DNA of 42,999 nt. Origin: Lysobacterales bacterium. GTDB lineage: Bacteria > Pseudomonadota > Gammaproteobacteria > Xanthomonadales > SZUA-36. Location of the stretch: NCBI GenBank assembly GCA_013042915.1, contig JABDPF010000009.1:1-42999 (forward strand), in the 5' to 3' direction. Shown here in pieces: positions 5,880 to 42,999 of the stretch. The notes under the pieces are model-generated. The model made no database searches, was not told where the DNA came from, and saw only the letters and a program-made list of their open reading frames with translations. Within the stretch, counting starts at the first letter, position 1. Each line of letters begins with the position of its first letter. The position numbers were made by a program, and so were the translations under genes.

Positions 5880-5904
5880 GCAGACACCACGGAGATTGGA
5901 TGAC

Positions 5905-6720: not shown

Positions 6721-6762
6721 CCTGGCCGACCTTTTGCAACCGGCAGGTCTCACGACTCGCAG

Positions 6763-6779
6763 CGGGGCGCTCAGCCCCG
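6763..6779. other. GC hairpin at the convergent junction of the sucrose arms
   Basis: CGGGGC-GCTCA-GCCCCG forms a perfect 6-bp stem with a 5-base loop and includes the amylosucrase stop codon. Neither strand has a T-run after it, so it is not a classical intrinsic terminator. It could still slow or end transcription coming from both sides. Confidence 0.4.
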
Positions 6780-8729
6780 GGTGCTCAACCAGTAGAACTT
6801 CCGCGGCGGCACAACCAGCTTGTCGCTGAACATCGCCGGGGCTTCGCCTGAATAAAGGTCCCGGAGCGGTCCGCGTGCGAATCGGCTGCGATGGCCAAGG
6901 TCATCCATTGTGATCGCGTGGGGCAGCTCGTCGAAATTCACTACCACCAGCACCTGGTCGCTGAAGTCCACCGGATTGCTGCGAATGAACGCGAAAAGGT
7001 GGGGGTTTCGAGTGTCGATCAGCTCGCGATTGTTGAAGTCGGCGAAAGCAGGGGTGCTTTTGCGTACCGCGATCATGTGCGATATGCCGTCGAAAATCTG
7101 TTGCTCGGTCGTTCCCCGCTGGTGTCGGCGCTCCGCCTTCTCCCAATCGATCACGGGCCGGTGAATCCAACGCGTGTCGTGCGCCTTGCTCTCGTCTTGC
7201 ATGAAGGAGGGATCGTTCAGGGTGCCGATCTCGTCGCCATGATAGAGCAGCGGAATGCCCCCGAAGGACATGATCATGGCGTGCAGCAGCAGGATCAGGT
7301 CGATGCAATGCTGGATCGCTTCCTCGTCACCCTGTTCGCATGCCGCCTCGAGGCCCACCAGGGAGGCCAGTGAGCCCGAAATACGTGCATCGCCGCTCTT
7401 CTCGTCGCGCCCAAACGGAACGCCGCGCGCCAGCGAGCCTTCAAAGGCCCCGGTGAAATAATCGAGCAGGAAGCGGCGGTGCGCCGCGGGCTCGTAACCG
7501 GCGCGCGCCACGTCGGCGTCGTCGAAGCCCAGCCCGATATCGTCGTGGCAACGCACGTAGTTCAGCCAGGTCGCGCGGTCCAGCTTGGCGGGCAGGCTGC
7601 TGATGCCCTCGTCCAGCAGCTTTGCGTTACGGGTGGCCACGGCGTCCCACAGCAGCGCCATGAACGTGGCGTTGTAGGCGATTTCGCATTCCTTGGCGAT
7701 GACCGCGTCCTCGCCGAAGTACTTGATGATCTCGACCGGCGCCACGATCGCCTCGGCGATGAACAGCACGCCCGGAGCGGTCACCTGGCAGCAGTCCTTG
7801 AGCAACTGCAAAATCAGGTGCGCCTCGCGCTCGTTCTGGCTGACCGTGCCGATCTTTTTCCACAGGAAGGCCACCGCGTCGAGGCGCAGGATGTCGGCGC
7901 CCCGGTTGGCCCAAAACAGCAGGACGTCGAGCATCTCGATGAACACCGCCGGATTGCTCCAGTTGAGATCCCACTGGTAGGTGTTGAACACCGTCATGAC
8001 CCACTTTTCCATTTCGGGGTCCCAGGTGAAGTTGCCGGGTGCGTTTTCCGGGAAGATCTCCGGCAGGGTTTCCTCGAACATGTCCGGAACGGTGCGGTCG
8101 TCAAAGATGTAAAAGTAATCCTGGTATTTTTTTTCTCCCGCCCGCGCCCGCGCGGCCCATTCGTGCTGATCGGAGACATGGTTGACGACCACGTCGAGGG
8201 TTAGCAGCATCTCGCGCTGGCGCAGGTTGGCCGCCAGGGCTTCGAGGTCCTCCATGGTTCCCACTCGCTCGTCCACGGCGCGGTAATCGCTGACCGCATA
8301 GCCGCCGTCGCTGGCGCCCGGTGGACACTTCAGAATCGGCATCACGTGCAGCATGTTGACACCCAGTTCCTGCAGGTAAGCCAGGCGCCCACCGATGCCC
8401 TCGAGGTCGCCGGCGAAAGAGTTGGCGTACAGGGCTATGGCGGCCCATTCCTGGCTCAGGAACCAGTTGTGGTCGGACTCCCGCTGGCGATCCAGGCGCT
8501 TGGCGCTTTTGCGACGCTGGATATAGTTTTTCGCCAACACCTCCACCAGGCGGGCCATCTGTTCCTCGAAGTCATCGCGCTTTCCGTACAGCAGGTGAAA
8601 CAGCGAGTGGATGGCGTAAAAGTTGGCGCCCAGGCGGGAGTAGAAGTAGTGAAGCTGCTTCTTGCGAATCTCCGGCTTGATGTCCTCGAGAATCCGGTTC
8701 AGCAGGGAATGAGAGACCTGTTCGTACAT
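6771..8729 (-). CDS. ams: Amylosucrase (GH13_4)
   Basis: A 652-residue glucansucrase that converts sucrose into alpha-1,4-glucan plus fructose. The long helical N-terminal domain (HYFYSRLGANFYAIHSLFHLLYG) and the LYANSFAGDLEGI and VNHVSDQHEWA stretches are typical of amylosucrase. Catalytic residues fall at Asp284 (ILRLDAVAF), Glu326 (LFIAEAIVAP) and His395-Asp396 (VRCHDDIG), very close to the 286/328/393 numbering of the Neisseria enzyme. A TAGGAG ribosome-binding site precedes ATG 8729. It is the third gene of the sps-frk-ams operon, beginning 7 bases after the fructokinase stop. That matches known sucrose clusters in methanotrophs. The product would feed glycogen-like storage while fructose is recycled. 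Confidence 0.94.
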   Translation of the reverse strand: MYEQVSHSLLNRILEDIKPEIRKKQLHYFYSRLGANFYAIHSLFHLLYGKRDDFEEQMARLVEVLAKNYIQRRKSAKRLDRQRESDHNWFLSQEWAAIALYANSFAGDLEGIGGRLAYLQELGVNMLHVMPILKCPPGASDGGYAVSDYRAVDERVGTMEDLEALAANLRQREMLLTLDVVVNHVSDQHEWAARARAGEKKYQDYFYIFDDRTVPDMFEETLPEIFPENAPGNFTWDPEMEKWVMTVFNTYQWDLNWSNPAVFIEMLDVLLFWANRGADILRLDAVAFLWKKIGTVSQNEREAHLILQLLKDCCQVTAPGVLFIAEAIVAPVEIIKYFGEDAVIAKECEIAYNATFMALLWDAVATRNAKLLDEGISSLPAKLDRATWLNYVRCHDDIGLGFDDADVARAGYEPAAHRRFLLDYFTGAFEGSLARGVPFGRDEKSGDARISGSLASLVGLEAACEQGDEEAIQHCIDLILLLHAMIMSFGGIPLLYHGDEIGTLNDPSFMQDESKAHDTRWIHRPVIDWEKAERRHQRGTTEQQIFDGISHMIAVRKSTPAFADFNNRELIDTRNPHLFAFIRSNPVDFSDQVLVVVNFDELPHAITMDDLGHRSRFARGPLRDLYSGEAPAMFSDKLVVPPRKFYWLSTRG

Positions 8730-8736
8730 AGCGCTC

Positions 8737-9636
8737 CTATAAGGCCGCGTCGTGCCCCCAGGCCACGATGAAAGGCTGATAAAACGCCGGATCGTCCACG
8801 GTGGCGCCGCGGCGGCCCACGATCGCGCTGGCGAAGGCCTGGGCGCGTTCGAGCGTGGTCTGCAGGGGCCAGCCTCGCATCATTCCCAGTATCGTCACCG
8901 AGGACAGAGCGTCGCCTGCTCCCACGGTGTCCACGACCTCCAGCGCCGGTATCGTGTGGGCGCGAAACACCTCGCCCTGCGCGTTGTACATGGCCGCGCC
9001 CTCCTCGCCAGCGGTCACCAACAACCCCTCCAAGCCGTGGGTTTCGATGAGGCGGGCGATTCGTGCCTCGGCAGTGCGGCCCGGGGCGAGCGCGTCCAGT
9101 TCGTGCTGGTTGAGCTTGACCCACTGCGCACCGTCGAGGCTGGCCAGGACCTGGTCGCGATTCCACCACGGTGGACGCAGGTTGACGTCGACGAACACGG
9201 TTTTCGGCTTGCCGGCGCGCAGGGCCTGCAACGCATCGCGGGAGGCCGCGTCTCGCAACGCCAAGCTGCCGTGATAAAGAAAGGAACACCGCGGACCGCC
9301 AGCTGGTGCCGCGATGGCATCCCAAGCGGCGGGGTGAACGATGTCGTAAGAGGGCTCGCTGTCTTCGAACACCACCCGGACCCGTCCGGTTGGCAACTTG
9401 GGGTCGGTCTGCAAGCCCGAGGCGTCCATGCCGTGTCCGCGCATCGACCGGCGGACTCCGATGCCGTCTGCATCCTCGCCCACCCGGCTGACCAGCAGCG
9501 GCGCCTCGCCGAATGCGGCCAGGTGCCAGGCGACGTTAAACGGTGCGCCGCCCAGTACGCGGCGGCCGTCGGGAAATTCATCGAAGAGCACTTCGCCGAA
9601 CACGCACAGCCCCTGGTTTGAGGAATCTCCGCGCAT
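8737..9636 (-). CDS. Fructokinase, PfkB/ribokinase family
   Basis: A 299-residue sugar kinase that would phosphorylate fructose released by amylosucrase to fructose-6-phosphate. The N-terminal GEVLFDEFPDGRRVLGGAPFNVAWHLAAFG is a PfkB signature, with the sugar-binding GGAPFN. The C-terminal DTVGAGDALSS carries the anion hole and the catalytic Asp242. The canonical GAGDAF has Leu in place of Phe here, which is unlikely to matter. ATG 9636 overlaps the synthase stop by one base (TGATG), so translation is coupled. Fructokinase is the most probable specificity given its place between synthase and amylosucrase. Confidence 0.9.
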   Translation of the reverse strand: MRGDSSNQGLCVFGEVLFDEFPDGRRVLGGAPFNVAWHLAAFGEAPLLVSRVGEDADGIGVRRSMRGHGMDASGLQTDPKLPTGRVRVVFEDSEPSYDIVHPAAWDAIAAPAGGPRCSFLYHGSLALRDAASRDALQALRAGKPKTVFVDVNLRPPWWNRDQVLASLDGAQWVKLNQHELDALAPGRTAEARIARLIETHGLEGLLVTAGEEGAAMYNAQGEVFRAHTIPALEVVDTVGAGDALSSVTILGMMRGWPLQTTLERAQAFASAIVGRRGATVDDPAFYQPFIVAWGHDAAL

Positions 9637-11801
9637 CAGCCTGACGCATTCCCGTCATCACGCAGGAAATCATAGTGCTCGATCGCATCCAGCAAACCAC
9701 CCGCGTAGGGACGCTCGGAGAAGTAGACCCGTTCGAGGTCGACCAGGGCGGAAAGTTCTTCTTCGTGGCGGTTGCCGACCACGACCGCCAGGGCGTTGCC
9801 GCGAATCATGTCCTCGTCGGCGCCCGATCCACCGGCCACCAGGATGTTCTCGAGGGGTATGTCCAGTCGCAGCGACGCATAACGCAGGGCCAGCCCTTTC
9901 GAAGCGCGCGCCGGCACCACGTCGAGAAACTGCCCGAAGGAGATGATTACGTTGGCGTTGAGCTCGTTCTTGTGGAGCGCGGCCATGATTTCATCCTGGC
10001 CTGGCGCCTTGGCCGAGTCGTAATAATAGGACAACTTGAACCCGGTTTGCCGATTCTTCTCCTGGATCTTCAATCCCGGAATGTCGTCCAGCACGCGACG
10101 TAAACGGGGTCGGTTCCAGTCGTGATCGATGTGATCCAACCAGTGCCTGTCCTCGGTCAGGTTGGAGCCGTAGTGGATACGCGTGCCCAAACCGCTGATC
10201 AACACATCGGGCGCCGGCACGCCGTGTTTCTTGAGGATCGCCAGCGTGGAATCGATGCGGCGCCCGGAAACGATACCGAACGCAACGCGCTTGCGGATGC
10301 GGCGGATGGTGTCGGAAAATTCCGCCAGGGCCCCGGTATCACCCAACAGCGTCTGGTCGATGTCGGTGAAGATGGCCCGGTCACGGTAGTGCGCGGCCCG
10401 GTCGGCAGGCCAAGCCACCGGTTCCCGCCGCGGCCTGTCGATCATCGCGCGCACCTTCTCGACGTAGGTCTCGGCATGAGCGGCCCAGGTGTAGTGCTCG
10501 CGCACGCCCTCGAGGCCGTTTTTCCTGGCCGTCTCGTAGCGGTCCTTGTCGTTCAACAAGGCAAGCAGGGCTTCGGCGATCGCGTCGGCATCCAGTGGAT
10601 CGACCAGGATGCCGTTTTTGCAGTTGGCGATGATATCGACCGGCCCGCCATTCTCGGTCGCCACCAGCGGTAGCCCGCACGCGGCGGCCTCGAGCAGTGT
10701 CAGGCCGAACGGCTCGGTCAGCGCCGGGTTGACGAACACGCCTCCACTGGCTGCCACGCCCCGGTAGACCTCGGGAATCTCATCTCCGGTATGCCGTTTC
10801 GGCAGGGCCACCTTGCCATATAGATTCCAGGCATCCAGGTCGAGCAACAACTGGGTCAGCACGGCCTGCGCGCCCTGGTCGAGGTCTCGGATATCGTCTC
10901 GGTTTCCGGCGATCAGCAGCAGGTTGGCTGCCTCCCGTAACGGTTCGCTTTTGCCGAACGCCTCCAGCATGACCGGGATGTTCTTGCGTTCGTCGGGGCG
11001 CGAAAGCGCCAGCACAAGGGGTTTCTCCGGGTGTTCAAAGAACGGCCGGTACTTCTTCATGCAGGGTAATGATTCACTTTTCTTGGGCGGGTAGAAGCGC
11101 CCGAGGTCGGTGCCCGGCGGGATCACGGTCATCGAATCCGGGTCGTAGTAATCGTACAGGCCGTACTGGGCCTGAATCTCGTTGCGCGTGCTGGTGATGA
11201 CCATGTCCGCGTTGGCGAGGAGTTCTTCCTCCGCGTTGACGCGGCGACTCATGTTGTAGGTGGACTCGATCGCTTCGCGGTCCAGCCCTTTCGCCAGCAG
11301 GCGCTTGCGCTTGTCGCGGCCGAGGGAATGCCCGGTGTGTATCAGCGGCACCCCCAGCAGGTTGACCAGGCGGACACCGACATAGCCGGCATCGGCGTAG
11401 TGGCTGTGCACCACGTCGGGCATTCGCGGCTGCTCGCCCAGCCATTGGGTCAGGTTATCCGTGAACGTGTCGAGGTGATCCCACAGTTGTTCCTTCGGTA
11501 TGTATTCCTCGGGCCCGGCGTCGATACGAATGATGTTGGCGTGATCGGATAGCGACTCCTCGACAGCGGTGTAGTCGTCGCTGACTGCCGGGTCGACAAT
11601 GCGGCGGGTGACCAGGTCGACACGCTCGACGCCGTCGAGCTCGCCCAGCGCACGCGCCAGTTCGACAACATAGAGAGTCTGCCCCCCGGTGTCGGCGTCG
11701 CGGCCGAGTTCGAGGTCGTGGCCCCGAATCAAGCCGTGGACACTGATCAGGAGAAAGTAGAGACCGGTTTTTTTGTCGGGCGCAGGCTGTTTTGCGGGCA
11801 T
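9636..11801 (-). CDS. sps: Sucrose-phosphate synthase, GT4 plus C-terminal HAD domain
   Basis: A 721-residue two-domain enzyme. Residues 1 to about 455 are a GT-B glycosyltransferase (GT4): HGLIRGHDLELGRDADTGGQ near the start is the fructose-6-phosphate site of sucrose synthases, with HTGHSLGRDKRKRL and TEPFGLTLLEAAACGLP later. It joins UDP- or ADP-glucose to fructose-6-phosphate. Residues about 475-715 are a sucrose-phosphatase-like HAD domain. Its motif I is intact (FTDIDQTLL, Asp480 and Asp482). Motif IV reads GGSGAD (657-662) where active phosphatases have GDSGND: the first acidic residue is Gly658 while Asp662 is kept. The fused domain may therefore be weak or regulatory, consistent with a separate phosphatase in the opposite arm. 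It heads the sps-frk-ams operon. Confidence 0.93.
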   Translation of the reverse strand: MPAKQPAPDKKTGLYFLLISVHGLIRGHDLELGRDADTGGQTLYVVELARALGELDGVERVDLVTRRIVDPAVSDDYTAVEESLSDHANIIRIDAGPEEYIPKEQLWDHLDTFTDNLTQWLGEQPRMPDVVHSHYADAGYVGVRLVNLLGVPLIHTGHSLGRDKRKRLLAKGLDREAIESTYNMSRRVNAEEELLANADMVITSTRNEIQAQYGLYDYYDPDSMTVIPPGTDLGRFYPPKKSESLPCMKKYRPFFEHPEKPLVLALSRPDERKNIPVMLEAFGKSEPLREAANLLLIAGNRDDIRDLDQGAQAVLTQLLLDLDAWNLYGKVALPKRHTGDEIPEVYRGVAASGGVFVNPALTEPFGLTLLEAAACGLPLVATENGGPVDIIANCKNGILVDPLDADAIAEALLALLNDKDRYETARKNGLEGVREHYTWAAHAETYVEKVRAMIDRPRREPVAWPADRAAHYRDRAIFTDIDQTLLGDTGALAEFSDTIRRIRKRVAFGIVSGRRIDSTLAILKKHGVPAPDVLISGLGTRIHYGSNLTEDRHWLDHIDHDWNRPRLRRVLDDIPGLKIQEKNRQTGFKLSYYYDSAKAPGQDEIMAALHKNELNANVIISFGQFLDVVPARASKGLALRYASLRLDIPLENILVAGGSGADEDMIRGNALAVVVGNRHEEELSALVDLERVYFSERPYAGGLLDAIEHYDFLRDDGNASG

Positions 11802-31121: not shown

Positions 31122-31191
31122 CTTCGGTGTCCGGAACAGATTTTTTTAAATGCAACCGCCATCCTTTTTTTTGTCAACACCGAGATCCAGT

Positions 31192-31971
31192 ATGCTTATC
31201 AATCGAATGAATAGAATGCTCTTGCTCGGCGCAATGGCCTCTGCGGTCTTCTCCGCATCGGTCTATGCCCAGGCGACTGTGGACCAGGTCATGGCCGAAG
31301 GTGAGAAACGCGCCGACGCAGGTGCTGCCGAGCAGCGCCGCGTGGAGCAGATCGCCGACCAAACGATCGACCTCCTCAACGACTACAACACAGTATCCAA
31401 AGTGGTTGACGGCCTGGTGACCTACAACGCCCTGTTGCAGCGCCAGATCACCAACCAGGAAGAGGAAATGGCCGCTCTCAACGAGTCCATCAAGAACGTC
31501 GCGCTTATCGAGCGCCAGATCGTTCCGATGATGACCAGGATGCTGGACTCGATGGAAGCGTTCATCGCACTCGATACGCCGTTCTTGCTCGAAGAGCGCG
31601 GGGAACGCCTGGAACGCCTGCGCGGCATGATGGAACGCTCCGACGTGTCCGCCGCCGAGAAGTTCCGCCGCGTGATCGAGGCGTATCAGATCGAAAACGA
31701 TTACGGCCGCACCATCGAAGCCTACAAGGACACGATCGATATCGATGGCGTGAAACAGGAGGCAGACTTCCTGCGAATCGGCCGTGTTTCCCTGGCCTAC
31801 CAGACGGTCGGTGGCGGCACCACCGGCGCATGGGACCCTGCAGCCGGACAGTTCATCGTTCTCGACGATGCCGAGTTCAAAAACCAGGTCTCTCATGGTT
31901 TGAGGGTAGCGCGAAAGCAGGTTGCTCCAGACTTGCTGGTCGTTCCCATTCCTGCGCCGTCGGAGGGCTAA
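31192..31971 (+). CDS. DUF3450 periplasmic protein of the TonB2-type operon
   Basis: A 259-residue exported protein. A signal peptide (MLLLGAMASAVFSASVYAQA) is followed by a long coiled-coil (about residues 30-110, rich in E/Q/R heptads such as ITNQEEEMAALNESIKN), then the DUF3450 core IALDTPFLLEERGERLERL and GVKQEADFLRIGRVSLAYQT. DUF3450 proteins are regularly encoded before TtpC-like MotA/TolQ/ExbB proteins. A structural role in a trans-envelope complex is inferred. ATG 31192 is preferred over an upstream ATG at 31150 because of the signal peptide. The next gene starts 3 bases after its stop. Confidence 0.88.
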   Translation: MLINRMNRMLLLGAMASAVFSASVYAQATVDQVMAEGEKRADAGAAEQRRVEQIADQTIDLLNDYNTVSKVVDGLVTYNALLQRQITNQEEEMAALNESIKNVALIERQIVPMMTRMLDSMEAFIALDTPFLLEERGERLERLRGMMERSDVSAAEKFRRVIEAYQIENDYGRTIEAYKDTIDIDGVKQEADFLRIGRVSLAYQTVGGGTTGAWDPAAGQFIVLDDAEFKNQVSHGLRVARKQVAPDLLVVPIPAPSEG

Positions 31972-31974
31972 GAC

Positions 31975-33339
31975 ATGATCCGCAAATTACTCAAAACAAC
32001 AGTGATCGCCGCGTTCGTTCTCGGACTTGGCCAGACCGCCTTCGCCGCTCAGCCCGTCTCGATGGACGAATTGCTCGAGCAGGTTCGACAGGGCCGCGTC
32101 AAGGACGCAGCCGAAAACCAGAAGCGTATCCAGGAATTCCAGGCCGCTCGCGGACGTCAGCAGGAACTGCTGCGTCAGATGCAGGCTGAGCAGACTCGCC
32201 AAGAGCGGCTCTCGGAGCAACTCGAAAGCACCTTCGAAGTCAACGACGCCGCCATCATGGATCTCGAGCGCGCCTTGCAGGATCGCCTGGGTGAACTGAA
32301 GGAGTTGTTCGGCGTGCTACAGCAGGCCGCCGGCGACGCGCGCGGCAACTTCGACACCTCCGTTACGCAGATCCAGTTCCCGGATCGTGGCGAGTGGCTG
32401 ACCCAGTTTGCCCAGAAGATGGGCTCCACCACCCGCATGCCGACGATGGAAGAAATTGAACGCATCTGGTTCGAGCTGCAGCGCGAGATGACCGAATCCG
32501 CCAAGGTGCTCGAGATTCCCGCTACCGTGGTCAACTCGGATGGCGAGGAAGAGCAACGGCAAGTGGTTCGCGTCGGTCTGTTCAACGTCGTTTCCGACGG
32601 TGATTACCTCGAATACGTGCCCGAAACCGGCCGCCTGGTGGAATTGCAGCGCCAACCGCAGAGCCGCTATACCGGCCGCGCGGAAGGCCTGCAGGAAACC
32701 CAGGCAGGCCTGGCCGGCTTCGGTATCGACCCGACTCGAGGCCAGCTGCTGGCCCTGCTGGTCCAGTCTCCAAGCCTGACCGAGCGTATCGCGCAGGGTA
32801 AGGAAGTCGGCTACGTCATCATCACGCTGGGTATCATCGCCGTGCTGATCGCGATCTGGCGCCTGCTGGCCCTGACCGCAACCAGCGCCAAGGTCAACAG
32901 TCAGGCCAAGAACCTGGAGAACCCGGGCAACAATCCGCTGGGCCGTGTGCTGAAGATCGCGCACGAAAACCCGGAATCGGACGTCGAGGCGCTCGAGCTG
33001 AAGTTGGGCGAGCAAATCCTGAAGGAAACACCGAAGTTCAACAAGATGCTTCCGTTCCTGAAGATCATCTCCGTCGTGGCGCCGCTGCTGGGTCTGCTGG
33101 GTACCGTTACCGGTATGATCATCACCTTCCAGGCCATCACCCTCTACGGTGCGGGCGATCCGAAGCTGATGGCCGGCGGTATCTCAACCGCCCTGGTGAC
33201 CACCGTGCTGGGCCTGGTCGTCGCTATTCCGACGGTCTTCATGCACACGCTGGTTCAGAGCCGCGCCAAACGACTGACGCAGATTCTCCAGGAAGAGGCC
33301 GCCGGCATGCTCTCAGAGCGTGCAGAAAGAATGGGATAA
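31975..33339 (+). CDS. TtpC-like MotA/TolQ/ExbB proton channel protein
   Basis: A 454-residue protein with a signal peptide (ending QTAFAAQ), a long periplasmic N-terminal coiled-coil (about residues 30-110), a periplasmic linker to about 270, and a C-terminal MotA/TolQ/ExbB domain. Its membrane helices are VGYVIITLGIIAVLIAIW (about 275), SVVAPLLGLLGTVTGMIITF (about 360) and STALVTTVLGLVVAIPTVF (about 400). LLGLLGTVTGMI is the family's channel signature. In Vibrio TtpC is required for TonB2-dependent iron uptake. GGAGG 8 bases upstream of ATG 31975 is a strong ribosome-binding site. Confidence 0.92.
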   Translation: MIRKLLKTTVIAAFVLGLGQTAFAAQPVSMDELLEQVRQGRVKDAAENQKRIQEFQAARGRQQELLRQMQAEQTRQERLSEQLESTFEVNDAAIMDLERALQDRLGELKELFGVLQQAAGDARGNFDTSVTQIQFPDRGEWLTQFAQKMGSTTRMPTMEEIERIWFELQREMTESAKVLEIPATVVNSDGEEEQRQVVRVGLFNVVSDGDYLEYVPETGRLVELQRQPQSRYTGRAEGLQETQAGLAGFGIDPTRGQLLALLVQSPSLTERIAQGKEVGYVIITLGIIAVLIAIWRLLALTATSAKVNSQAKNLENPGNNPLGRVLKIAHENPESDVEALELKLGEQILKETPKFNKMLPFLKIISVVAPLLGLLGTVTGMIITFQAITLYGAGDPKLMAGGISTALVTTVLGLVVAIPTVFMHTLVQSRAKRLTQILQEEAAGMLSERAERMG

Positions 33340-33345
33340 GTCCTT

Positions 33346-33885
33346 ATGGATACCATTTATTATTATCTGCCATTCCTCGAGACCATCCGTGACTTTTTTG
33401 AGCTCGGAGGACCGGTTCTCAATGTGATCGCGCTGGTAACGCTGTTCATGTGGATGCTCATCATCGAGCGCCTCGTTTACTTTCGCACCGGTCACAAGAA
33501 ACTGATTCGCCAGGCCCATGTCTACTGGGATGTCAGGCCGGAATACTCGTCCTGGAATGCCCACCAGATTCGGGATCGGATCATTTCCCAGGTCAGTTCG
33601 AGCGCCGAGCGCAACATGGCGCTGATCAAGACCTGTGTCGCGCTGTGCCCCCTGCTGGGCCTGCTCGGCACCGTGACGGGAATGATCGAAGTCTTCGAAG
33701 TCATGGCGATCTCCGGATCGGGCAACCCCCGATCCATGGCGTCAGGCGTTTCCAAAGCCACCGTGCCCACGATGGCGGGCATGGTGGCCGCGCTTTCCGG
33801 CGTAGCCATGTCGGCTTTCCTCGAAAACAAAGCGCGCAGGGAACGTGATTTCATCTCTGACGAGTTGATAATCGAGCACGGCTGA
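33346..33885 (+). CDS. exbB: ExbB2-type biopolymer transport protein
   Basis: A 179-residue inner-membrane protein of the ExbB/TolQ family, forming the proton-conducting pentamer around ExbD. Three helices are seen: VLNVIALVTLFMWMLIIERLV, LCPLLGLLGTVTGMIEVF and VPTMAGMVAALSGVAMSAF. This short form lacking a long N-terminus is typical of ExbB2 in TonB2 systems. It begins 6 bases after the TtpC-like gene. Confidence 0.94.
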   Translation: MDTIYYYLPFLETIRDFFELGGPVLNVIALVTLFMWMLIIERLVYFRTGHKKLIRQAHVYWDVRPEYSSWNAHQIRDRIISQVSSSAERNMALIKTCVALCPLLGLLGTVTGMIEVFEVMAISGSGNPRSMASGVSKATVPTMAGMVAALSGVAMSAFLENKARRERDFISDELIIEHG

Positions 33886-33924
33886 GGGAACTATCCCCCA
33901 GCCTGCTGATCAGGAGAAGTACAT

Positions 33925-34332
33925 ATGCGGCAACATCTAGCCACTCAATACGAAGAAGAAGAATCGGAGATCAACATCACGCCAATGCTCGATGTGGTGT
34001 TCATCATGCTGATCTTTTTCATCGTGACCGCAACGTTCGTGAAAGAGGCCGGTATCGAAGTCAACCGGCCCGACGCGGCGACGGCGGTCAAACAGGAAAA
34101 GGCCAACATCCTGGTGGCCATCGGCCCCAATAATGACATCTGGATCGACCGTCGCCAGATCGATATCCGGTCCGTGCGACCGAACATCGAACGTCTGCAC
34201 GCCGAGAACCCGCAGGGTTCAGTGGTGATTCAGGCAGACAAGGATTCCAAGACGGATACGTTGATCCAGGTAATGGATGCCGCCCGCCAGGCGGGCGTGT
34301 TCAACGTGTCGATTGCGGCAAATGAGCCCTAA
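33925..34332 (+). CDS. exbD: ExbD2-type biopolymer transport protein
   Basis: A 135-residue protein with a single N-terminal membrane helix and a periplasmic ExbD/TolR domain. INITPMLDVVFIMLIFFIVTATFV contains the proton-binding Asp that energises TonB (Asp25 in E. coli ExbD). The periplasmic part ends VMDAARQAGVFNVSIAA, the ExbD C-terminal signature. AGGAGA lies about 10 bases before ATG 33925. Confidence 0.95.
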   Translation: MRQHLATQYEEEESEINITPMLDVVFIMLIFFIVTATFVKEAGIEVNRPDAATAVKQEKANILVAIGPNNDIWIDRRQIDIRSVRPNIERLHAENPQGSVVIQADKDSKTDTLIQVMDAARQAGVFNVSIAANEP

Positions 34333-34343
34333 AGAGGTATGCC

Positions 34344-35000
34344 ATGTCGGCTACGATTAATGAAACCCTGACACTACCCAAAGCCGGTAATTCCTTCCGA
34401 CTTATTGTCGGTATCGTTCTTGGCGTCTGCGTAACGGCCGGTCTGTTCTGGTTCATGCAGTACCTGATCGTAACCGCCGATCGTGATTTGAATGAAGGAA
34501 CCTCAGGTCACCTGATCGACTTCGTCAGACTGAAACGCGACGAGTCCATCCAGCGCAGGCAACTCAAGCCCGAGAAACCACCACCGCCGGATGCCCCGCC
34601 GCCGCAGCCACCGACTCCGCAGCTTGAGAACCTGAATCCCTCGGCCGAGAAGATCGCCATCCAGGCGGCGCCGGTTGAAACCGACATCGAGATGTCGGGA
34701 GGCTTCAGCCTGGGTGTCGGCGAAGGCGACTATCTGCCGATCGTCAAAGTAGCGCCGATCTACCCGCAGCGTGCTCTTTCCCGCGGTATCGAAGGCTACT
34801 GCGTGGTCCAGTACACGGTGACCCGGAACGGCACGATCCGCGATCCCTTTGTCATCGAGGACCAGTGCACCAGTTCCCTGTTCCATCGCGCCTCGATCCA
34901 GGCGGCCCTGAAATTCAAGTACAAGCCGCGGGTCGTCGATGGCCAGTCCATCGAGGTGCCCGGTGTACAGAACAAGTTCACCTACGAGATTCAGGAATAA
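34344..35000 (+). CDS. tonB: TonB2-type energy transducer
   Basis: A 218-residue protein linking the ExbB-ExbD motor to outer-membrane receptors. A membrane helix at about residues 18-45 (RLIVGIVLGVCVTAGLFWFM) is followed by a short proline-rich spacer (KPPPPDAPPPQPPTPQ) and a C-terminal TonB domain beginning VKVAPIYPQRALSRGIEGYCVVQYTV. The spacer is much shorter than in E. coli TonB, as expected for TonB2 proteins. An AGAGG ribosome-binding site precedes ATG 34344. Confidence 0.94.
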   Translation: MSATINETLTLPKAGNSFRLIVGIVLGVCVTAGLFWFMQYLIVTADRDLNEGTSGHLIDFVRLKRDESIQRRQLKPEKPPPPDAPPPQPPTPQLENLNPSAEKIAIQAAPVETDIEMSGGFSLGVGEGDYLPIVKVAPIYPQRALSRGIEGYCVVQYTVTRNGTIRDPFVIEDQCTSSLFHRASIQAALKFKYKPRVVDGQSIEVPGVQNKFTYEIQE

Positions 35001-35012
35001 AGGAGCGAACGA

Positions 35013-36359
35013 ATGACACAGTATTTGAGTAAATTCGTCGTCGCCCTGGTCACGGGTGTCCTGCTGATTGGCTCCAGCACCCCGCTGCTGGCCCAGTCCG
35101 GCGACAAGGAAAGAGAACGTAAGACCAAGGAAACGGTTGCGATGAGCCAGCAGGTGTATGAGCAACTCACCGAACTGCAGGAACTCATCGAGGCCCAGGA
35201 CTATGCCCAGGCCGAGGTGAAAGTCAGAGATCTTCGCAACAAGAAGGGACTGAGCGACTACGAACGCGCCCAGATCTGGAACATCACGGCATACTCCTAC
35301 TACCTGCAGGAACGTTACTCGGACGCGATCGACGCGTACGACCAGGTCCTGGCACAGCCCGACCTACCCGCTGCTCTCCAGCAGAGTACGCTGAAGACGA
35401 AGTCACAGCTCATGTTCACGCAGGAGGATTACGAGGGCGCACTCGTGGTGATTCGCGAGTTGATGGCCGTGATTCCCGAGCCCAGCGCGGACGTGCTGAT
35501 GATCGAAGGCCAGGCCCTATTCCAACTGGCGCGTTACGACGAAGCCCTGGTGCCGATCAAGACCGCCATCACGATGTACCGCGACCAAGGACAGAAACCC
35601 AAGGAAAACTGGCTGTTGCTGCTGCGCGTGATTTACTTCGAGCAGAAGGATTACGAGAAGATGCTCGACGTGGTCAAGGAACTCATCGCCTACTATCCCA
35701 AAGACACCTACATCCTGGTCCTGGCAGGTATCTACAGCGAGTTGGGCGACACCAAGAAACAGTTGACGCTGTCCGAGGTGCTGTACGAAAAGGGATACCT
35801 GAACAATGCGTCTCAGGTGACGAACCTCGCCAACCTCTACTTGCTTCATGGCCAGCCCTACAAGGCGGCCGTGCTGCTGCAAACGGAGATTGACAAGGAA
35901 GTGGTCAAGAGCAACGAGCGCAACCTGAGGCTGCTCTCGCAAGCATGGTACACGGCCCGCGAAGACGAAAAAGCCATTCCACCCCTCGAGCGCGCCGCGG
36001 CGATCGCCGGCGACGGCGAGCTGTACATACGACTCACGCAATCGCACATCAACCTGGAAAACTGGTCCGAGGCGGCAGCCGCCGCACGAAGAGGCATCGA
36101 GGTGGGTGGCCTGAAACGTACCGACCAGGCGCACATCATGCTCGGCATGGCGCTGTTTAACCAGAAGAAGCTGGAGCAAGCCCGCGGCGCTTTCCAGCGC
36201 GCAGGCCGGGACAATCGCTCTGCCCGAACGTCCTCCCAGTGGATTAATTACGTGGACAGCGAGATCAAGCGCCGCGACCTGATGAGACAGGAAGTCCCGA
36301 ATTATCAGCCGCGCGAGCGCGACGAACTGCTCGACGTGATCGAGGGTGGAACGAACTAG
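35013..36359 (+). CDS. TPR-repeat periplasmic protein of the TonB2-type operon
   Basis: A 448-residue exported protein. The signal peptide ends near STPLLAQ. Tetratricopeptide repeats fill most of the protein, for example AQIWNITAYSYYLQERYSDAI, SELGDTKKQLTLSEVL and AHIMLGMALFNQKKLEQA. TPR proteins close TonB2-type clusters in several Gammaproteobacteria and may act as assembly platforms; the partner is not shown by sequence. AGGAG precedes ATG 35013 by 8 bases. The operon ends at the terminator 27 bases after its stop. Confidence 0.88.
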   Translation: MTQYLSKFVVALVTGVLLIGSSTPLLAQSGDKERERKTKETVAMSQQVYEQLTELQELIEAQDYAQAEVKVRDLRNKKGLSDYERAQIWNITAYSYYLQERYSDAIDAYDQVLAQPDLPAALQQSTLKTKSQLMFTQEDYEGALVVIRELMAVIPEPSADVLMIEGQALFQLARYDEALVPIKTAITMYRDQGQKPKENWLLLLRVIYFEQKDYEKMLDVVKELIAYYPKDTYILVLAGIYSELGDTKKQLTLSEVLYEKGYLNNASQVTNLANLYLLHGQPYKAAVLLQTEIDKEVVKSNERNLRLLSQAWYTAREDEKAIPPLERAAAIAGDGELYIRLTQSHINLENWSEAAAAARRGIEVGGLKRTDQAHIMLGMALFNQKKLEQARGAFQRAGRDNRSARTSSQWINYVDSEIKRRDLMRQEVPNYQPRERDELLDVIEGGTN

Positions 36360-38017: not shown

Positions 38018-41000
38018 CTACCTGATAAATAACTGAAAACCCGCCCATTGAACCAAATTAGGCCCGGTTTCAGCGTCAAGGAGCGCCTTTCGCGTATCGT
38101 GAAGCGCCTTCGCCACGTCTTTTTCCTGCACCAGGCGATCGTAAAACGCCTCCATGAACGTCGCCGAGCGTTCATCGTCCAGCGGCCAGAGCGACGCAAT
38201 GACCCGCGATGCCCCGGCCTGGTTCAAATCGTGAAGTAGCCCCAGTTGGCTGGCAAAGTACGGCGCCTTCCGGTCGACGAACGCCGTGCCACCCAGCACG
38301 GCCAGTTCCGCCCGCACGGGGATCGAACGCAGATCGGCGGGTCGCAGGAAGTCGGCGGTCGGTCGTTCCCGTTCACCCGACAGCAAGAGCCGGGAGTCAT
38401 CCGGGTGCGCGAGGTCGACACGCCCTGGCATCGTGAGGTGGATCAGCGAGGCATTGGCGTAGCGCCCGTCCTGGAATTCGTCGCCTCGCAGCGCAACGCC
38501 CTGGACGATATGCAGCCCGTCGCCAACGAAACGGTCGCGTACTGCGTCGATCTCCCGGGAAGTGGTTACGCCGTAGCTGAAGAGCTCGCGCCCGGCTCGC
38601 GGGTTACCTGCCAGAAACACCTGCAGTCCGAAATCGCTCGAAAGCGCTTCGAGCGCCGGCTGTATTCCGATTACCGAATCGATATTCACCAGGCGGTGCC
38701 GGACTGCCAGGAAGCGGCCCTCAACGCGGAGGGCATCCAGAGGAAAACCGTTAACCGGTCCCGACGGCATCAGCAGAATCGTGTCGCCGATCACATCAGC
38801 CAGCGGTTCCAACAAGTCGGCTCCGAGCCGGTCCAGCAGGGGTTCCACCACCGCTTCCGGGGCCTGTATTGCCGCCCAGGCTTCGTCGAGACGCGTGCGG
38901 GTCCGGGCCGAATCCGCCAGGCGATGCAGCCGGGCGCCTTCTTGCGAGGCGGTAACCGCGTGAACACGCTCGCCGGAAAAATCGAAGGCCAGTACGCTGG
39001 TTCGACGGTCCAGTTGGGCCAGTGCTGCGCGGATATCCGCTGTTGTGGGTCTTGCATTACCCCAATCGGCGCGCTCCCGGAAACGTCTGATGGCCCCGTG
39101 CGCCTGGCGGGAAGGCACGTCGATGGCGGTCGGCTGAGCAGTCATTGCCCGTTGCACGGCTGTACGTACGGCGTCTTCCGGCGACCGCTCCTGGGGCACG
39201 ATCCCCTCGAGTCTCCGGATGTACTCCAGGGCGCGCAAGGTTTCGAGCGCCGAGACGCCTCTGGCCAATTCCAGGTAGGCGCTGAATAGTTCGCCACGAT
39301 TGACCGCGTGCCAGTGGACGATTACGCCGGGCAGCCGCTCCCGGTAAAACTGGACGGTATCGAGAAGGCTGTTCACCTCGTCTCGCGCCTGGTCCGTTTG
39401 ACCCTCTCTTTGCAGAAGTTGGACCCACGCCAGGCCGGCTTCTACCTCCAGCGACGGCAAGCCGCTGCGCTTGAGCACGGCCAGACTCTCCCGGACCTGT
39501 TGCGGCGTGCAAGAGCCGCGCCCGCTTACCCTCAGAAGCAGACACCGTTGCAGCCCTGCCCGGTGTTCCGTCAGCCGATCCCGGCCCTTGGCCTCTGTTC
39601 GGGCATCGCCGAGCAATCGAAGCGCCTCCGCGCTGTCACCGCGTGCCCGGGCATCCATGGCAGACTCATACAGGAAGGCCGCCCTACCGACCTCGGCCCA
39701 GGCCGCTCCTTCCTGGCGTCGGCGGTATTCAGCGGCTTCCGCGTGCATTCCCTGATCTCGGGCGATCGAGGCCAGCGCACCCAGAGCGCGGTAGCGTTCA
39801 CCCGCGCGCGCCCGCGGAGTACGCAGAAGCGCATCGTTCAGCGTATTCAATGCCGTATCGAAATCACCCAGCGCGAACTGCGAGCGCCCCAGTTCCAGGC
39901 CGGTCGGACCCCAGGGTTCGGAAGCGCCATGCCGTTGCCGCAATGTCAGTGCCCGCTCGAGAACGGGCAATGCCTCGGCAAAGCGGAACGTTTCGTTCAG
40001 GAGGCGGCCCCGCTCATACAGGTTATGCGCCAATTCCAGTGCCATCGCCGCCTCGTCGCGCTCCGACAGGTCGCCCGTGATGTCCTCCAGCAAACCCAGC
40101 GCTCCGCTGGTGCTGCCGCTGCGTTCATAAGCCGCGGCCGCGGTCGCGCGCACCGTATTCAGCAACTCCTGGTCCGGCCCGGGCGCAATGACGGCGAGGG
40201 CCTGCTCGTAGCGCTCGATGGCGGAATCCAGGCGGTCCTGGCGCTCGTAGGCAATTCCGTCGCGGTACAACGATCGTCCGCGCTCGTTTTCGAAACCCAG
40301 CACCTCCGCCATGGCGGCGACCTGCTCCCAAAGCGGATGCGCCTGTTCATAGCGCGCGGTGGCTTGCTCGCCCACCGAACGCTCCGCCTCGCGCATGAGG
40401 CTCTCGGCTTCGAGCAAAGCAGCAAGCAGTTCGATCGCAGGCAGCCCGGCCCTGCGCGCAGCGGTGTAAACCCGGCGAGCGCGTTCACGCGCCAGCAGCA
40501 CGTCTCCAACCCCGTGAAGCACAAGATGCGCGGCATAGTATTCCGACCACAACTGCATCTCTTCGTTGCCCATCGATGCAAACACCCGGGCCGCATTGCG
40601 CAAGGAAGACGTGCGCTCCGCCCACGTCGCGCCCGAAGGCCGATAGACCCGCTCCATGCCGTGAGACAACATTCGATAGGCCTTTGCCTGCAGTTGGGCA
40701 TTCGGATCCTGCCGCGGAAACTGCAGCAGTTTCATGCTGATGCGCGATCTCTGGACCTTCTGCTGCGGGCGAACCTCCACCATCAACTGGCGTGGCGTAT
40801 CGACCGCCGCGATGTACTGGTAAACGGGACCGATAAGCCGGCCCGGAACGTTGGCCTCGCTGACGAGCGTCCCCTCGGGCCCGGTGATGCGCGTATCGAA
40901 TTCCGCCTCGCGAACGTCAACGATCACTACCAGCGTCATCCCCGGGTACTGGTAGATCATGTACTCGGCCGCTTCCGCCGAAGGGGAAGCAGATGTCTGC

Positions 41001-41077
41001 GCCAGGGCCACGGAATGCCAGAGCAGAAACGCAACGACCAGCGAGAAAACGTTCAGATAGTGAGACAGTAAACGCAT
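38018..41077 (-). CDS. Exported TPR protein with catalytically degenerate CHAT domain
   Basis: A 1019-residue protein. A signal peptide ends near HSVALAQTS. A region of unknown fold follows (about 35-120, including EYMIYQYPGMTLVVIVDVRE), then TPR repeats from about 130 to 640. A C-terminal CHAT domain (about 710-1019) ends ASRVIASLWPLDDERSATFM and AFYDRLVQEKDVAKAL, both family hallmarks. CHAT is a caspase-like peptidase fold with a His-Cys dyad. Here HLTMPG (880-885) puts Pro884 where the catalytic His of HxxxHG should be, and VLGGT (927-931) puts Thr931 where the Cys of VLSAC should be. The domain is probably a binding or scaffolding module. It is divergent from the twin VWA genes. No ribosome-binding site is seen before ATG 41077. 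Confidence 0.85.
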   Translation of the reverse strand: MRLLSHYLNVFSLVVAFLLWHSVALAQTSASPSAEAAEYMIYQYPGMTLVVIVDVREAEFDTRITGPEGTLVSEANVPGRLIGPVYQYIAAVDTPRQLMVEVRPQQKVQRSRISMKLLQFPRQDPNAQLQAKAYRMLSHGMERVYRPSGATWAERTSSLRNAARVFASMGNEEMQLWSEYYAAHLVLHGVGDVLLARERARRVYTAARRAGLPAIELLAALLEAESLMREAERSVGEQATARYEQAHPLWEQVAAMAEVLGFENERGRSLYRDGIAYERQDRLDSAIERYEQALAVIAPGPDQELLNTVRATAAAAYERSGSTSGALGLLEDITGDLSERDEAAMALELAHNLYERGRLLNETFRFAEALPVLERALTLRQRHGASEPWGPTGLELGRSQFALGDFDTALNTLNDALLRTPRARAGERYRALGALASIARDQGMHAEAAEYRRRQEGAAWAEVGRAAFLYESAMDARARGDSAEALRLLGDARTEAKGRDRLTEHRAGLQRCLLLRVSGRGSCTPQQVRESLAVLKRSGLPSLEVEAGLAWVQLLQREGQTDQARDEVNSLLDTVQFYRERLPGVIVHWHAVNRGELFSAYLELARGVSALETLRALEYIRRLEGIVPQERSPEDAVRTAVQRAMTAQPTAIDVPSRQAHGAIRRFRERADWGNARPTTADIRAALAQLDRRTSVLAFDFSGERVHAVTASQEGARLHRLADSARTRTRLDEAWAAIQAPEAVVEPLLDRLGADLLEPLADVIGDTILLMPSGPVNGFPLDALRVEGRFLAVRHRLVNIDSVIGIQPALEALSSDFGLQVFLAGNPRAGRELFSYGVTTSREIDAVRDRFVGDGLHIVQGVALRGDEFQDGRYANASLIHLTMPGRVDLAHPDDSRLLLSGERERPTADFLRPADLRSIPVRAELAVLGGTAFVDRKAPYFASQLGLLHDLNQAGASRVIASLWPLDDERSATFMEAFYDRLVQEKDVAKALHDTRKALLDAETGPNLVQWAGFQLFIR

Positions 41078-41083
41078 CGGACA

Positions 41084-41112
41084 TAAATAGCGGCAGCGGC
41101 ACGGCCCGTCAA
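41084..41112 (-). promoter_or_regulatory. Candidate promoter of the TPR-CHAT gene
   Basis: On the minus strand: TTGACG (41112-41107, five of six), a 17-base spacer, then TATTTA (41089-41084, three of six). The -10 ends only 7 bases before the start codon, so this promoter would give an almost leaderless mRNA, in line with the missing ribosome-binding site. Confidence 0.35.
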
Positions 41113-41145
41113 CAGCCTATCGCGCAGCGAGGGGACAGCCAATTG

Positions 41146-41156
41146 CCGATTATCGG
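41146..41156. promoter_or_regulatory. CCGAT-T-ATCGG dyad in the CHAT/VWA divergent region
   Basis: An 11-base perfect palindrome with a single central base lies in the 104-base region between the divergent starts. It may be a regulator binding site for the VWA genes. The loop is too short to be a terminator despite the CTTTTT that follows. Confidence 0.3.
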
Positions 41157-41181
41157 ACTTTTTGTTAGCGTGCGGGGGTCC

Positions 41182-42105
41182 ATGCGCAGACTCAACCGCG
41201 AAACTACCGTGTTCTCCACCTCGGCGATCGACCTGTTCGCGTCGGCGCTGGGTGCCTTCATCCTGTTGGTGATGATCCTGTTCCCGTATTACCGGAATGC
41301 CGGCAGCGACGATGCGTTTTCGCGCACGCAGGAGATCCAGGACATGCGGCGGCTTGCCTCCGGTGAGATAGCCGATCTTCTGGCCGAGGCCCGAACGGCG
41401 AACAGCGAACTGCAGGACATGGACGAGGCCAACCGCGGCATCGAGACGAGCATTTCGCGGATCGAACGCCAGATGGCGGACCTCAAGACCCAGTTGGCCG
41501 AAGAACCGATTCCCGAGCCGGAACCCGTGGAGGAGATCACTGAAGAGCCCGAGGCGCTGGTATCGGGCGTCGAGTTCTCCCTTCTCGGCCTGGCCACGGA
41601 GGCGAAGTCCTTCGTGATCGTTATCGACATGTCCGGCAGCATGTTGTCCTACACCGATCTGATGGTGAACTCGGTGCTGGAAATGCTGGAACCGCTGGAC
41701 GAAACCAATACCTTCGCCGTGGTCGGCTACCAGGGCAGCCCGGCGCCCACGCTCTGGTCCTACCCCGATCGAACGGCGCTGGTCCAGGCCACGCCGGCAA
41801 ACCTGGCCGAGGCGAAAAACTTCGTTCTCACGCTGGCTCGCCGTTTCGCGGGCTCCACGCCCACACATTACGCATTGTTGTCGGCCCTGCAGTACCCCGC
41901 TGAGACCGTCATATTGCTCAGTGACGGCGAACCGGACAACGCCCCGGGCTTTATTATCCAGGACATCACCGGCCTGAACCGCTACCAGAACAAGGAAATC
42001 CACACCGTGGCGATCGGTGACTACACGCAGAACCGCGGCCTCGTGATGTTCCTGCAAACCCTCGCGCGTCAGAACGGCGGAGATTTCGTGGGGGTATCGC
42101 GGTGA
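41182..42105 (+). CDS. Membrane-anchored VWA-domain protein with MotB-like helix
   Basis: A 307-residue protein. Residues about 14-36 form one membrane helix, SAIDLFASALGAFILLVMIL, whose pattern (Asp17, AxxxAF, LxM) resembles the proton-binding helix of MotB. A coiled-coil (about 50-100) and a Pro/Glu-rich linker follow. A VWA domain spans about residues 143-307: MIDAS DMSGS (149-153), the GSTPTHYALLSAL Thr region, and LLSDGEPDN. The topology would place the VWA domain outside the cytoplasm. ATG 41182 has GGGGG 6 bases upstream. The next gene starts within its stop (GTGA), encoding a paralogue. Confidence 0.87.
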   Translation: MRRLNRETTVFSTSAIDLFASALGAFILLVMILFPYYRNAGSDDAFSRTQEIQDMRRLASGEIADLLAEARTANSELQDMDEANRGIETSISRIERQMADLKTQLAEEPIPEPEPVEEITEEPEALVSGVEFSLLGLATEAKSFVIVIDMSGSMLSYTDLMVNSVLEMLEPLDETNTFAVVGYQGSPAPTLWSYPDRTALVQATPANLAEAKNFVLTLARRFAGSTPTHYALLSALQYPAETVILLSDGEPDNAPGFIIQDITGLNRYQNKEIHTVAIGDYTQNRGLVMFLQTLARQNGGDFVGVSR

Positions 42106-42999
42106 GGTCACGACGGCGCGTATTCGAGGTCTATTCCCTGTCGGCCGTCGATCTGTTCGCCTCGGCGATGGGTGCATTCATCATTATCAGCATCATCCTG
42201 ATGCCGGATTACCAAAAGGAAGTCCGCTCGCTGGGCGACCTGGAATACCTGGAGGAACTGGCCGGAAAGACCCAGGCGATGCTCGACCAGACCGAGCAGG
42301 GGCGCCGCGATGTGCTCGATGCGCTGCGCGCCGCGCAAACCCGCCAGCGGGAGTTGCAGGCACGTTACGAAACCGTCTCGTCGGAACTGGAAACGTTGGA
42401 AGCCCAGCAACAGGCGCGGCTCGACCAGCCGCCCCCTCCGCCACCTTCACCCGAAGTGACCGAAGAAGAGGACGGCAGCAACCTGGTCACGTTCCGTTTC
42501 CTCGGCTTGAAAACCGACCAGAAACAAATCCTTTTCCTGGTCGATATGAACCGCTTCCTTGCGCCGCACGAGCCCCTCGTTCGGGAGTCGGTCATTCGCG
42601 CGATGGATTCACTGCAGGACGGCTACCGTTTCGCCATCCTGGGGTTTCAACAACAAGACCAGGGGCCGGTGTACTACCGCTGGCCGGAAGGCGGTGAACT
42701 GGCGCCTATGAACGACCGCAACCGGGCCGATGCGCGGGCTTTCATGAGGGAGATATCCGGCAAGTACGAAGGCTCCTCCTCGCTTTTGAGCGCCTTCGAC
42801 GAGGCATTCACCAACCAGGCCGGGGCCATTGTTCTGTTCAGCGACGGCCTGCCCAACCCCAGCTACAACAACGGGCTGGCGGCTGGGCCCCTGGTGCGCT
42901 CGATTACCGTGGCGAACCGGCGTCAGCAGGAAATCCACGCGGTGACCCTGGGCGACTACTTCAAGTACCGGGGCACCATCGAGTTCATGGAATCGTTGG
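42102..42999 (+). CDS. Second MotB-like-anchored VWA paralogue, degenerate MIDAS, partial
   Basis: The open frame begins at GTG 42102, overlapping the previous stop, and runs off the window after about 299 residues. It repeats the neighbour's architecture: SLSAVDLFASAMGAFIIISIIL with the Asp again at residue 17, a coiled-coil (about 40-95), a PPPPPP linker, and a VWA-like domain (LFLVDMNRFL to ITVANRRQQEIHAVTLGDYF). The MIDAS position reads DMNRF (148-152), lacking both serines of DxSxS. GSSSLLSAF and LFSDGLPNP parallel the first protein's GSTPTHYALLSAL and LLSDGEPDN. Metal-dependent ligand binding is therefore doubtful. Confidence is limited by truncation. Confidence 0.83.
   Translation, partial: MRSRRRVFEVYSLSAVDLFASAMGAFIIISIILMPDYQKEVRSLGDLEYLEELAGKTQAMLDQTEQGRRDVLDALRAAQTRQRELQARYETVSSELETLEAQQQARLDQPPPPPPSPEVTEEEDGSNLVTFRFLGLKTDQKQILFLVDMNRFLAPHEPLVRESVIRAMDSLQDGYRFAILGFQQQDQGPVYYRWPEGGELAPMNDRNRADARAFMREISGKYEGSSSLLSAFDEAFTNQAGAIVLFSDGLPNPSYNNGLAAGPLVRSITVANRRQQEIHAVTLGDYFKYRGTIEFMESL

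Follow-up and report, generated by a model that had tools for sequence, protein, structure and literature searches.

The question raised by one end of a contig from a Lysobacterales bacterium (assembly GCA_013042915.1, contig JABDPF010000009.1) is what kind of envelope system is encoded by an exported TPR protein with a CHAT domain and, divergent from it, two overlapping genes for membrane proteins with VWA domains. The window, i.e. the whole stretch of DNA that was analysed, is this complete contig (G000:C12; 42,999 bases), one of the 105 contigs of a 2.69 Mb genome; "own" refers here to the genome that holds the window, and loci, genomes and contigs carry labels of the form L###, G### and C##. 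An earlier note, made from the letters of the window, had proposed an undescribed envelope complex powered by ion flux, with a MotA/ExbB-like partner implied by the membrane helices of the VWA proteins. We report that such a partner gene is present on what appears to be the continuation of the cluster, and we suggest, with confidence somewhat short of even, that the locus encodes an ion-driven 5:2 stator in which the two VWA proteins form the pair of B subunits, which is phospho-controlled and which acts on the periplasm or outer membrane. The features of the window on which the argument rests are listed below.

38018..41077, minus strand: CHAT-TPR gene, encoding an exported TPR protein of 1019 amino acids (aa) with a C-terminal pseudo-CHAT (caspase-like) domain, assigned by Pfam
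38030..38836, minus strand: CHAT domain (residues 748-1016), a Pfam match
41078..41181, no strand: spacer of 104 bases between the divergent CHAT and VWA1 genes, delimited by the gene ends
41182..42105, plus strand: VWA1, with a membrane helix, a coiled coil and a VWA domain with intact MIDAS (DMSGS); proposed stator B subunit 1
41230..41232, plus strand: D17 codon in the VWA1 membrane helix, proposed ion-binding Asp, invariant in 16/16
42102..42999 (cut by the contig end), plus strand: VWA2, built like VWA1 with DxN in place of the MIDAS; proposed stator B subunit 2
42150..42152, plus strand: D17 codon in the VWA2 membrane helix, invariant in 16/16

The divergent arrangement of the CHAT-TPR gene and the overlapping VWA genes, as described in the earlier note, was found to be real (open reading frames (ORFs) at 38018-41077, 41182-42105 and 42102 to the end). 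VWA1 is a protein of 307 aa that matched Pfam VWA_3 with an E value of 1.2e-9; its start is probably 41182 rather than 40993, because the ORF from 40993 overlaps the CHAT gene and the shorter form aligns from its first residue with 15 relatives. VWA2 begins with a GTG at 42102, overlapping the VWA1 stop, and runs for 299 codons until the contig ends inside it at 42999. Its match to VWA_3 (E 3.4e-5, 24.4 bits) is below the Pfam cut-off of 27, but it is 35% alike to VWA1 (E 3.7e-35). In each protein a single membrane helix at the N-terminus is followed by a coiled-coil-like stretch and a VWA domain; in the Pfam scan of both proteins only VWA models were of note and no peptidoglycan-binding domain was matched. 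The predicted structure of VWA1 (pLDDT 79.8, pTM 0.56) has one helix (residues 15-40), a coiled coil (43-106) and a VWA fold (130-305). The top Foldseek match of this model was the structure of ITIH1 (inter-alpha-inhibitor VWA; E 4.4e-11), and a PDB sequence search with VWA1 returned two inter-alpha-inhibitor VWA chains and one coiled-coil chain.

The MotB-like helix pattern noticed earlier, which is also ExbD-like, is more than chance, since all 16 VWA1 and all 16 VWA2 sequences compared have D17 in the membrane helix. The DxSxS motif of the MIDAS is kept in 16/16 VWA1 sequences and is DxN in 16/16 VWA2 sequences, which points to a metal site that has been kept in VWA1 and lost in VWA2.

That the cluster extends past the window had also been anticipated, and contig C22 of the own genome provides its probable continuation. 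Read from its end, C22 opens with ARANGGGFLALSG followed by a stop, the expected end of VWA2 (last 13 codons), where a relative has ESLARANAGGFLALAE; the two contig ends overlap by 2 bases. The MotA-like protein of a relative matches C22:20073-20813 with 89% identity, and the kinase-FGE protein of a relative likewise matches C22. From the junction onwards, C22 carries a divergent ORF of 143 aa (its counterpart in L042 had no Pfam match) followed by genes for a small FHA protein, a MotA/TolQ/ExbB protein, a membrane FHA protein, a Ser/Thr kinase with a transmembrane segment (TM) and an FGE domain, and a secreted protein, after which an unrelated transporter-like gene comes next. The ion-channel partner predicted from the VWA helices therefore exists, in that C22, which continues VWA2, encodes a protein matching PF01618 with 50.5 bits (cut-off 22.9).

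This MotA-like protein is 247 aa long, with the PF01618 match at residues 125-229 and without a long cytoplasmic tail. Its residues P160, G163, G166, T167 and T204 are common to three MotA proteins of a second system (system 2, described below) and to two ExbB proteins of a TonB-type cluster elsewhere in the window; the Thr residues of the channel are thus kept. A search of the PDB with its profile returned nothing. Reading the ORFs of C22 and of the operons of relatives revealed no tolR/exbD gene in the cluster, a search with PF02472 not having been made.

The distribution of the locus was first defined by VWA1 matches below 1e-20, which were found in 29 of the 37 genomes of the same bacterial family and in none of the 24 genomes from eleven other families of the order. 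In a sample of the class, the VWA1 profile at 1e-6 matched 8/369 genomes, the own genome included, and in a scan of the phylum with the MotA profile at E 1e-30 the own genome was the only match (1/398). A scan of named genomes with the MotA alignment yielded 40 loci. Among these, 29 (L056-L082, L085 and L091) are of the window type and belong to gammaproteobacterial metagenome-assembled genomes (MAGs) whose titles read Lysobacterales, Xanthomonadales, Chromatiales, Oceanospirillales or something less precise. The remainder are one locus titled Sphingomonadales (L083), seven from Alphaproteobacteria (Rhodospirillales, Kiloniellales, Inquilinus and one order without a name), one from Parabeggiatoa and two from Thiomargarita; in the Alphaproteobacteria and the Beggiatoa-like bacteria the MotA gene mostly stands alongside FHA, VWA-type and kinase genes. 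Loci L056-L095 overlap with the G-numbered loci (e.g. L059 is the G005 locus and L073 the G019 locus), so counts from the two sets are not independent.

Where the contig is long enough, the window-type loci share the order CHAT (divergent), VWA1, VWA2, FHA, MotA, pseudoprotease-FHA, kinase-FGE and secreted protein. The CHAT gene is divergent in 20/20 loci with more than 1 kb upstream (in 19 of them within 1 kb; the match is split in L065), VWA2 and FHA precede MotA in 22/22, and the pseudoprotease-FHA, kinase and secreted-protein genes lie downstream of MotA in 18/18. A gene for a lipoprotein of about 640 aa and one of about 265 aa come next in 12 named loci. In the own genome the lipoprotein gene occurs in two tandem copies on another contig, C62:13494-17317 (L154 and L155); the copy of a relative had no Pfam match. 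As for its partners, the hypothesis of an ion-flux-powered envelope complex is thus supported: an ion-channel-like gene lies downstream, the genes co-occur in a fixed order, and the literature search found no characterised family with this architecture.

The CHAT-TPR protein has a Sec-like N-terminus and matched Pfam CHAT (E 2.5e-25) and TPR_12 (E 4.7e-9); a PDB sequence search with it gave a TPR match only. At the positions that we take to be catalytic, all 16 family members have Pro in place of His and lack the Cys, and both residues are kept in 6/6 other CHAT proteins of related genomes used as controls. The comparison confirms the earlier designation of a pseudo-CHAT, predicted to be catalytically dead. 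Identity to the own copy is 26-42% across 15 relatives for CHAT and 76-89% across 14 relatives for MotA, the most conserved member compared.

The operon further encodes candidate parts of a phospho-relay. The own kinase-TM-FGE protein matched Pkinase (E 3.3e-33) and FGE-sulfatase (E 4.7e-48; 8.9e-46 in a relative), and the kinase Lys and DFG are kept in 15/15 kinase-FGE proteins that passed a filter which itself demanded an HRD-type loop. The membrane FHA protein, modelled for the relative at L059, has an HtrA-like periplasmic fold that matched Rv3671c (E 2.8e-8) and also DegQ, Deg1 and DegS. Within the family its protease triad is lost (His 0/19, Ser 0/19, Asp 1/19), with a Ser one position later than the triad Ser in L064, L077 and L091. 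The triad is intact in four of five such protease-FHA proteins outside the family, and for this reason the dead form looks derived; of three HtrA controls from the own genome, one (L149) passed the filter for this comparison. The fifth, which has lost its triad, is in L147 and adjoins an intact one, the neighbouring protease-TM-FHA genes there being L147:4750-6234 and L147:6254-7573.

The small FHA protein encoded before MotA ends in the motif R-[ND]-[PAL]-x-T-G-x-[IV], preceded by a poorly conserved stretch. The motif was found by script in 36 of 38 MotA-adjacent FHA proteins, or 37 with the correct ORF of L086, which the script had read in the wrong frame; in four of the 42 loci (L078, L082, L083 and L091) there was no FHA gene upstream that could be used. 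Among the carriers are the proteins of the alphaproteobacterial loci, of Parabeggiatoa and Thiomargarita and of L147; L081 lacks the motif. TGx[ILV] occurs within the last 40 residues of 40/45 FHA ORFs versus 6/328 long ORFs of the named loci, counts that include repeat loci and a background that still contains FHA ORFs. A preference of FHA domains for the residue at +3 from the Thr is known, and the Ile/Val of the T-G-x-[IV] tail at this position fits it. In the membrane FHA protein the binding pocket is kept (G 18, R 16, S 17, H 18 and N 17 of 18). The tail looks like a phosphothreonine switch, and the simplest reading would be that the operon kinase phosphorylates it and the membrane FHA protein reads it.

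From these genes, their order and the residues kept and lost, we infer a complex, an ion flow, a relay and a task. The locus would encode a MotA/TolQ-type stator of the inner membrane, driven by ions and with 5:2 stoichiometry. Five copies of the 247-aa MotA-like protein would form a ring, and VWA1 and VWA2 would be its two unlike B subunits, the D17 helix of each lying in the ring and its VWA domain in the periplasm. The membrane Ser/Thr kinase would sense an outside signal through its FGE-like domain and phosphorylate the small FHA protein, whose gene adjoins MotA, on its T-G-x-I/V tail; the membrane protein with the HtrA-like pseudoprotease outside would read this tail through its FHA domain, and this reading would clutch or release the motor. 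The VWA pair would act on envelope partners. VWA1, which has kept its metal site, would do the gripping, and the likeliest partner would be the pseudo-CHAT TPR protein, which is exported. That the VWA pair and MotA form one motor is highly probable. The weak profile matches of MotA to ZorA2 and of VWA2 to ZorB1, quoted below, also speak for the stator. The phospho-gating of this motor is put forward more cautiously, at best as an even call, and a direct partnership with the pseudo-CHAT protein is a possibility that we hold below even.

Several observations weigh against this proposal. The junction of C12 and C22 inside VWA2 is unassembled: it is deduced because the ends share 2 bases and stay in frame. 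In 8 of the 37 family genomes VWA1 had no match below 1e-20. Two genomes carry second copies of the system (L037 and L048) without an adjacent MotA or CHAT gene, copies that may borrow the MotA of the main copy, and L083 has the order VWA1-VWA2-MotA-kinase with no small FHA gene seen. Several members have lost pocket residues in their small FHA protein (G 38, R 33, S 26, H 37 and N 24 of 38), which suggests that parts of the relay may differ between lineages; in L072 and L073 the pocket is degenerate and the tail kept. Phosphorylation of the tail is itself a guess from the motif and the gene context.

The core of the proposed motor has a published counterpart. Unlike vWA pairs with a transpore helix (TPH) and a conserved Asp have been predicted (PMC12204202; Mol Biol Evol 2025) to serve TolQ-like pentamers as their B subunits; this TPH-vWA class was found through homology to an Idiomarina protein, and its function is given there as unknown. 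By description, the present locus is alike in its unlike tandem vWA genes, the N-terminal helix with a conserved Asp, the TolQ-like gene and the lack of tolR/exbD, and differs in having a Ser/Thr kinase, two FHA proteins, an HtrA-like pseudoprotease and a pseudo-CHAT protein; section 8 of that paper names neither a kinase nor an FHA, CHAT, FGE or protease-like partner. Apart from this paper, no description of the core was found in a literature search whose coverage lacks most subscription papers and all bioRxiv preprints, and MotA, TolQ, ExbB and CHAT were not found in the accessible part of an account of vWA conflict systems (PMC7159879). The locus is therefore a signalling-linked variant of the predicted vWA/TolQ core, and the description "undescribed" holds for the elaborated, kinase-linked version only, the paired vWA and TolQ-like core being already in print. 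What appears to be new is the kinase/FHA layer, the two dead protease folds and the conserved T-G-x-I/V tail on the FHA protein.

A membrane Ser/Thr kinase and an FHA reader that control a membrane machine are also known from the PpkA-Fha threonine phosphorylation pathway of the type VI secretion system (T6SS; PMC3953482). The controlled machine here would instead be an ion-driven motor, and a reading of these genes as T6SS regulators was rejected because TssB (PF05591), a sheath gene of the T6SS, is absent from the own genome (0/1) and present in 2/23 family genomes.

Of the other explanations, the one that survives best is a force transducer like TonB/TolA or Agl-Glt, with surface or outer-membrane partners and a role in adhesion or gliding, in which the kinase and FHA proteins steer assembly or place only. 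Agl-Glt offers a parallel (PMC3169522): the MotA/TolQ-type AglR is joined there to two unlike B-type subunits, AglQ and AglS, to the FHA membrane protein GltG and to TPR proteins, and the vWA pairs of PMC12204202 were likewise suggested to transduce force. The B subunits of Agl-Glt are however ExbD/TolR proteins, and its FHA protein carries a TonB domain where the present one is HtrA-like. Among the genes of the locus none was identified as a gliding part of the surface or outer membrane, Glt homologues not having been searched for, and the lipoprotein gene that follows the operon in the 12 named loci sits on another contig in the own genome. We regard this explanation as unlikely, with perhaps a quarter of the weight.

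A non-motor signalling platform, in which the MotA ring and the VWA helices would anchor the kinase and FHA proteins structurally with no ion flow, gains some appeal because the locus already keeps two enzyme folds as dead scaffolds, so that a third could be one too; yet the proposed ion-path residues are invariant and MotA is far better conserved than CHAT, which makes it improbable. A Zorya-like anti-phage or conflict system (PMC11890865), with a motor that senses envelope damage and the kinase or caspase-like part as effector, is most improbable of all: a MotA/MotB-like pair outside motility, weak PADLOC profile matches (MotA to ZorA2, E 4.1e-6; VWA2 to ZorB1, E 0.0032) and the occurrence of CHAT and FGE domains in conflict systems speak for it, but both the caspase-like and the protease-like domain have lost their catalytic residues, the operon showed neither a nuclease nor another effector, PADLOC had no match for VWA1 or CHAT, and the locus is present in most genomes of its family whereas defence genes are patchy. 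Among the three window and four operon proteins scanned with PADLOC, none matched ZorC/D or ZorE. The Zorya precedent cited in the earlier note thus stands as a resemblance and not as membership, given that the B subunits carry a VWA domain where Zorya has a peptidoglycan-binding one and that MotA is without the long tail. A PADLOC match of the kinase to PD-T4-6 was set aside as general kinase similarity.

Related motors occur in other settings. System 2 (L050-L052 and L137-L144) combines a MotA-like protein (PF01618, E 1.8e-13) with two VWA proteins bearing the helix SLSFLDxxxCGFGA, together with an actin-like protein (named by reading, with no Pfam match), a PEGA-FGE protein and a coiled-coil protein whose gene is joined to a kinase-like stretch in L139; it was found in some family genomes (L050-L052) and in 30/369 class genomes at 1e-10. 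Both systems thus have a MotA-like protein and two Asp-helix VWA proteins, and they differ in helix sequence and partners. In a tree that left out 9 of 41 MotA-like segments as repeats or fragments, MotA proteins from the two systems, together with those of the alphaproteobacterial and Beggiatoa-like loci, stood apart from the own ExbB/TolQ proteins with 100/100 support, a grouping limited by long branches and few references. Five further loci (L084, L089, L145, L146 and L147) hold subsets of FHA, MotA, TPH-protein, protease-FHA, kinase and PP2C genes together, the PP2C and most kinase calls resting on reading and BLAST. Beside protease-FHA and kinase genes, L145:7637-8326 and L084:12122-12985 encode the same Asp-bearing helix on a C-terminal part without a VWA look (no VWA model matched the L145 protein), and because this part differs, the arm on the stator helix seems exchangeable.

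Elsewhere in the window, a TonB-type cluster at 31150-36359 encodes an exported coiled-coil protein, two ExbB proteins, ExbD (33925-34332, on the far side beyond CHAT), a TonB-like protein and a TPR protein, named by reading except for ExbB, which was assigned by a Pfam search of the genome. Its ExbB-ExbD-TonB genes (31975-36359) were considered as the ion channel of the system and rejected, because their adjacency to CHAT, present in L042-L044, is not kept in L039-L041, L045 and L046. An ORF run at 4131-11801 resembles sucrose or glucosylglycerate metabolism genes, these names being from reading only.

In its fullest form, which we offer tentatively, the proposal is that of a first phospho-gated ion-driven stator, in which the kinase writes the tail, the pseudoprotease FHA protein reads it as a clutch on the motor, the metal-binding and non-metal VWA arms work asymmetrically on the envelope, and the older form would be the wiring with an active protease and PP2C that is seen in Beggiatoa-like and other loci of Gammaproteobacteria. 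Motors of the vWA/TolQ type are so far known from prediction only, and no phenotype is reported in the part of PMC12204202 that we could consult. For such motors the locus supplies a wiring diagram with a kinase, a pair of FHA proteins and candidates for the phosphosite and for the outside partner, and it keeps two protease folds as dead scaffolds within one envelope locus. To our knowledge there is no precedent for an ion-driven stator under Ser/Thr phospho-control; if the proposal is true, such a stator can be controlled in this way.

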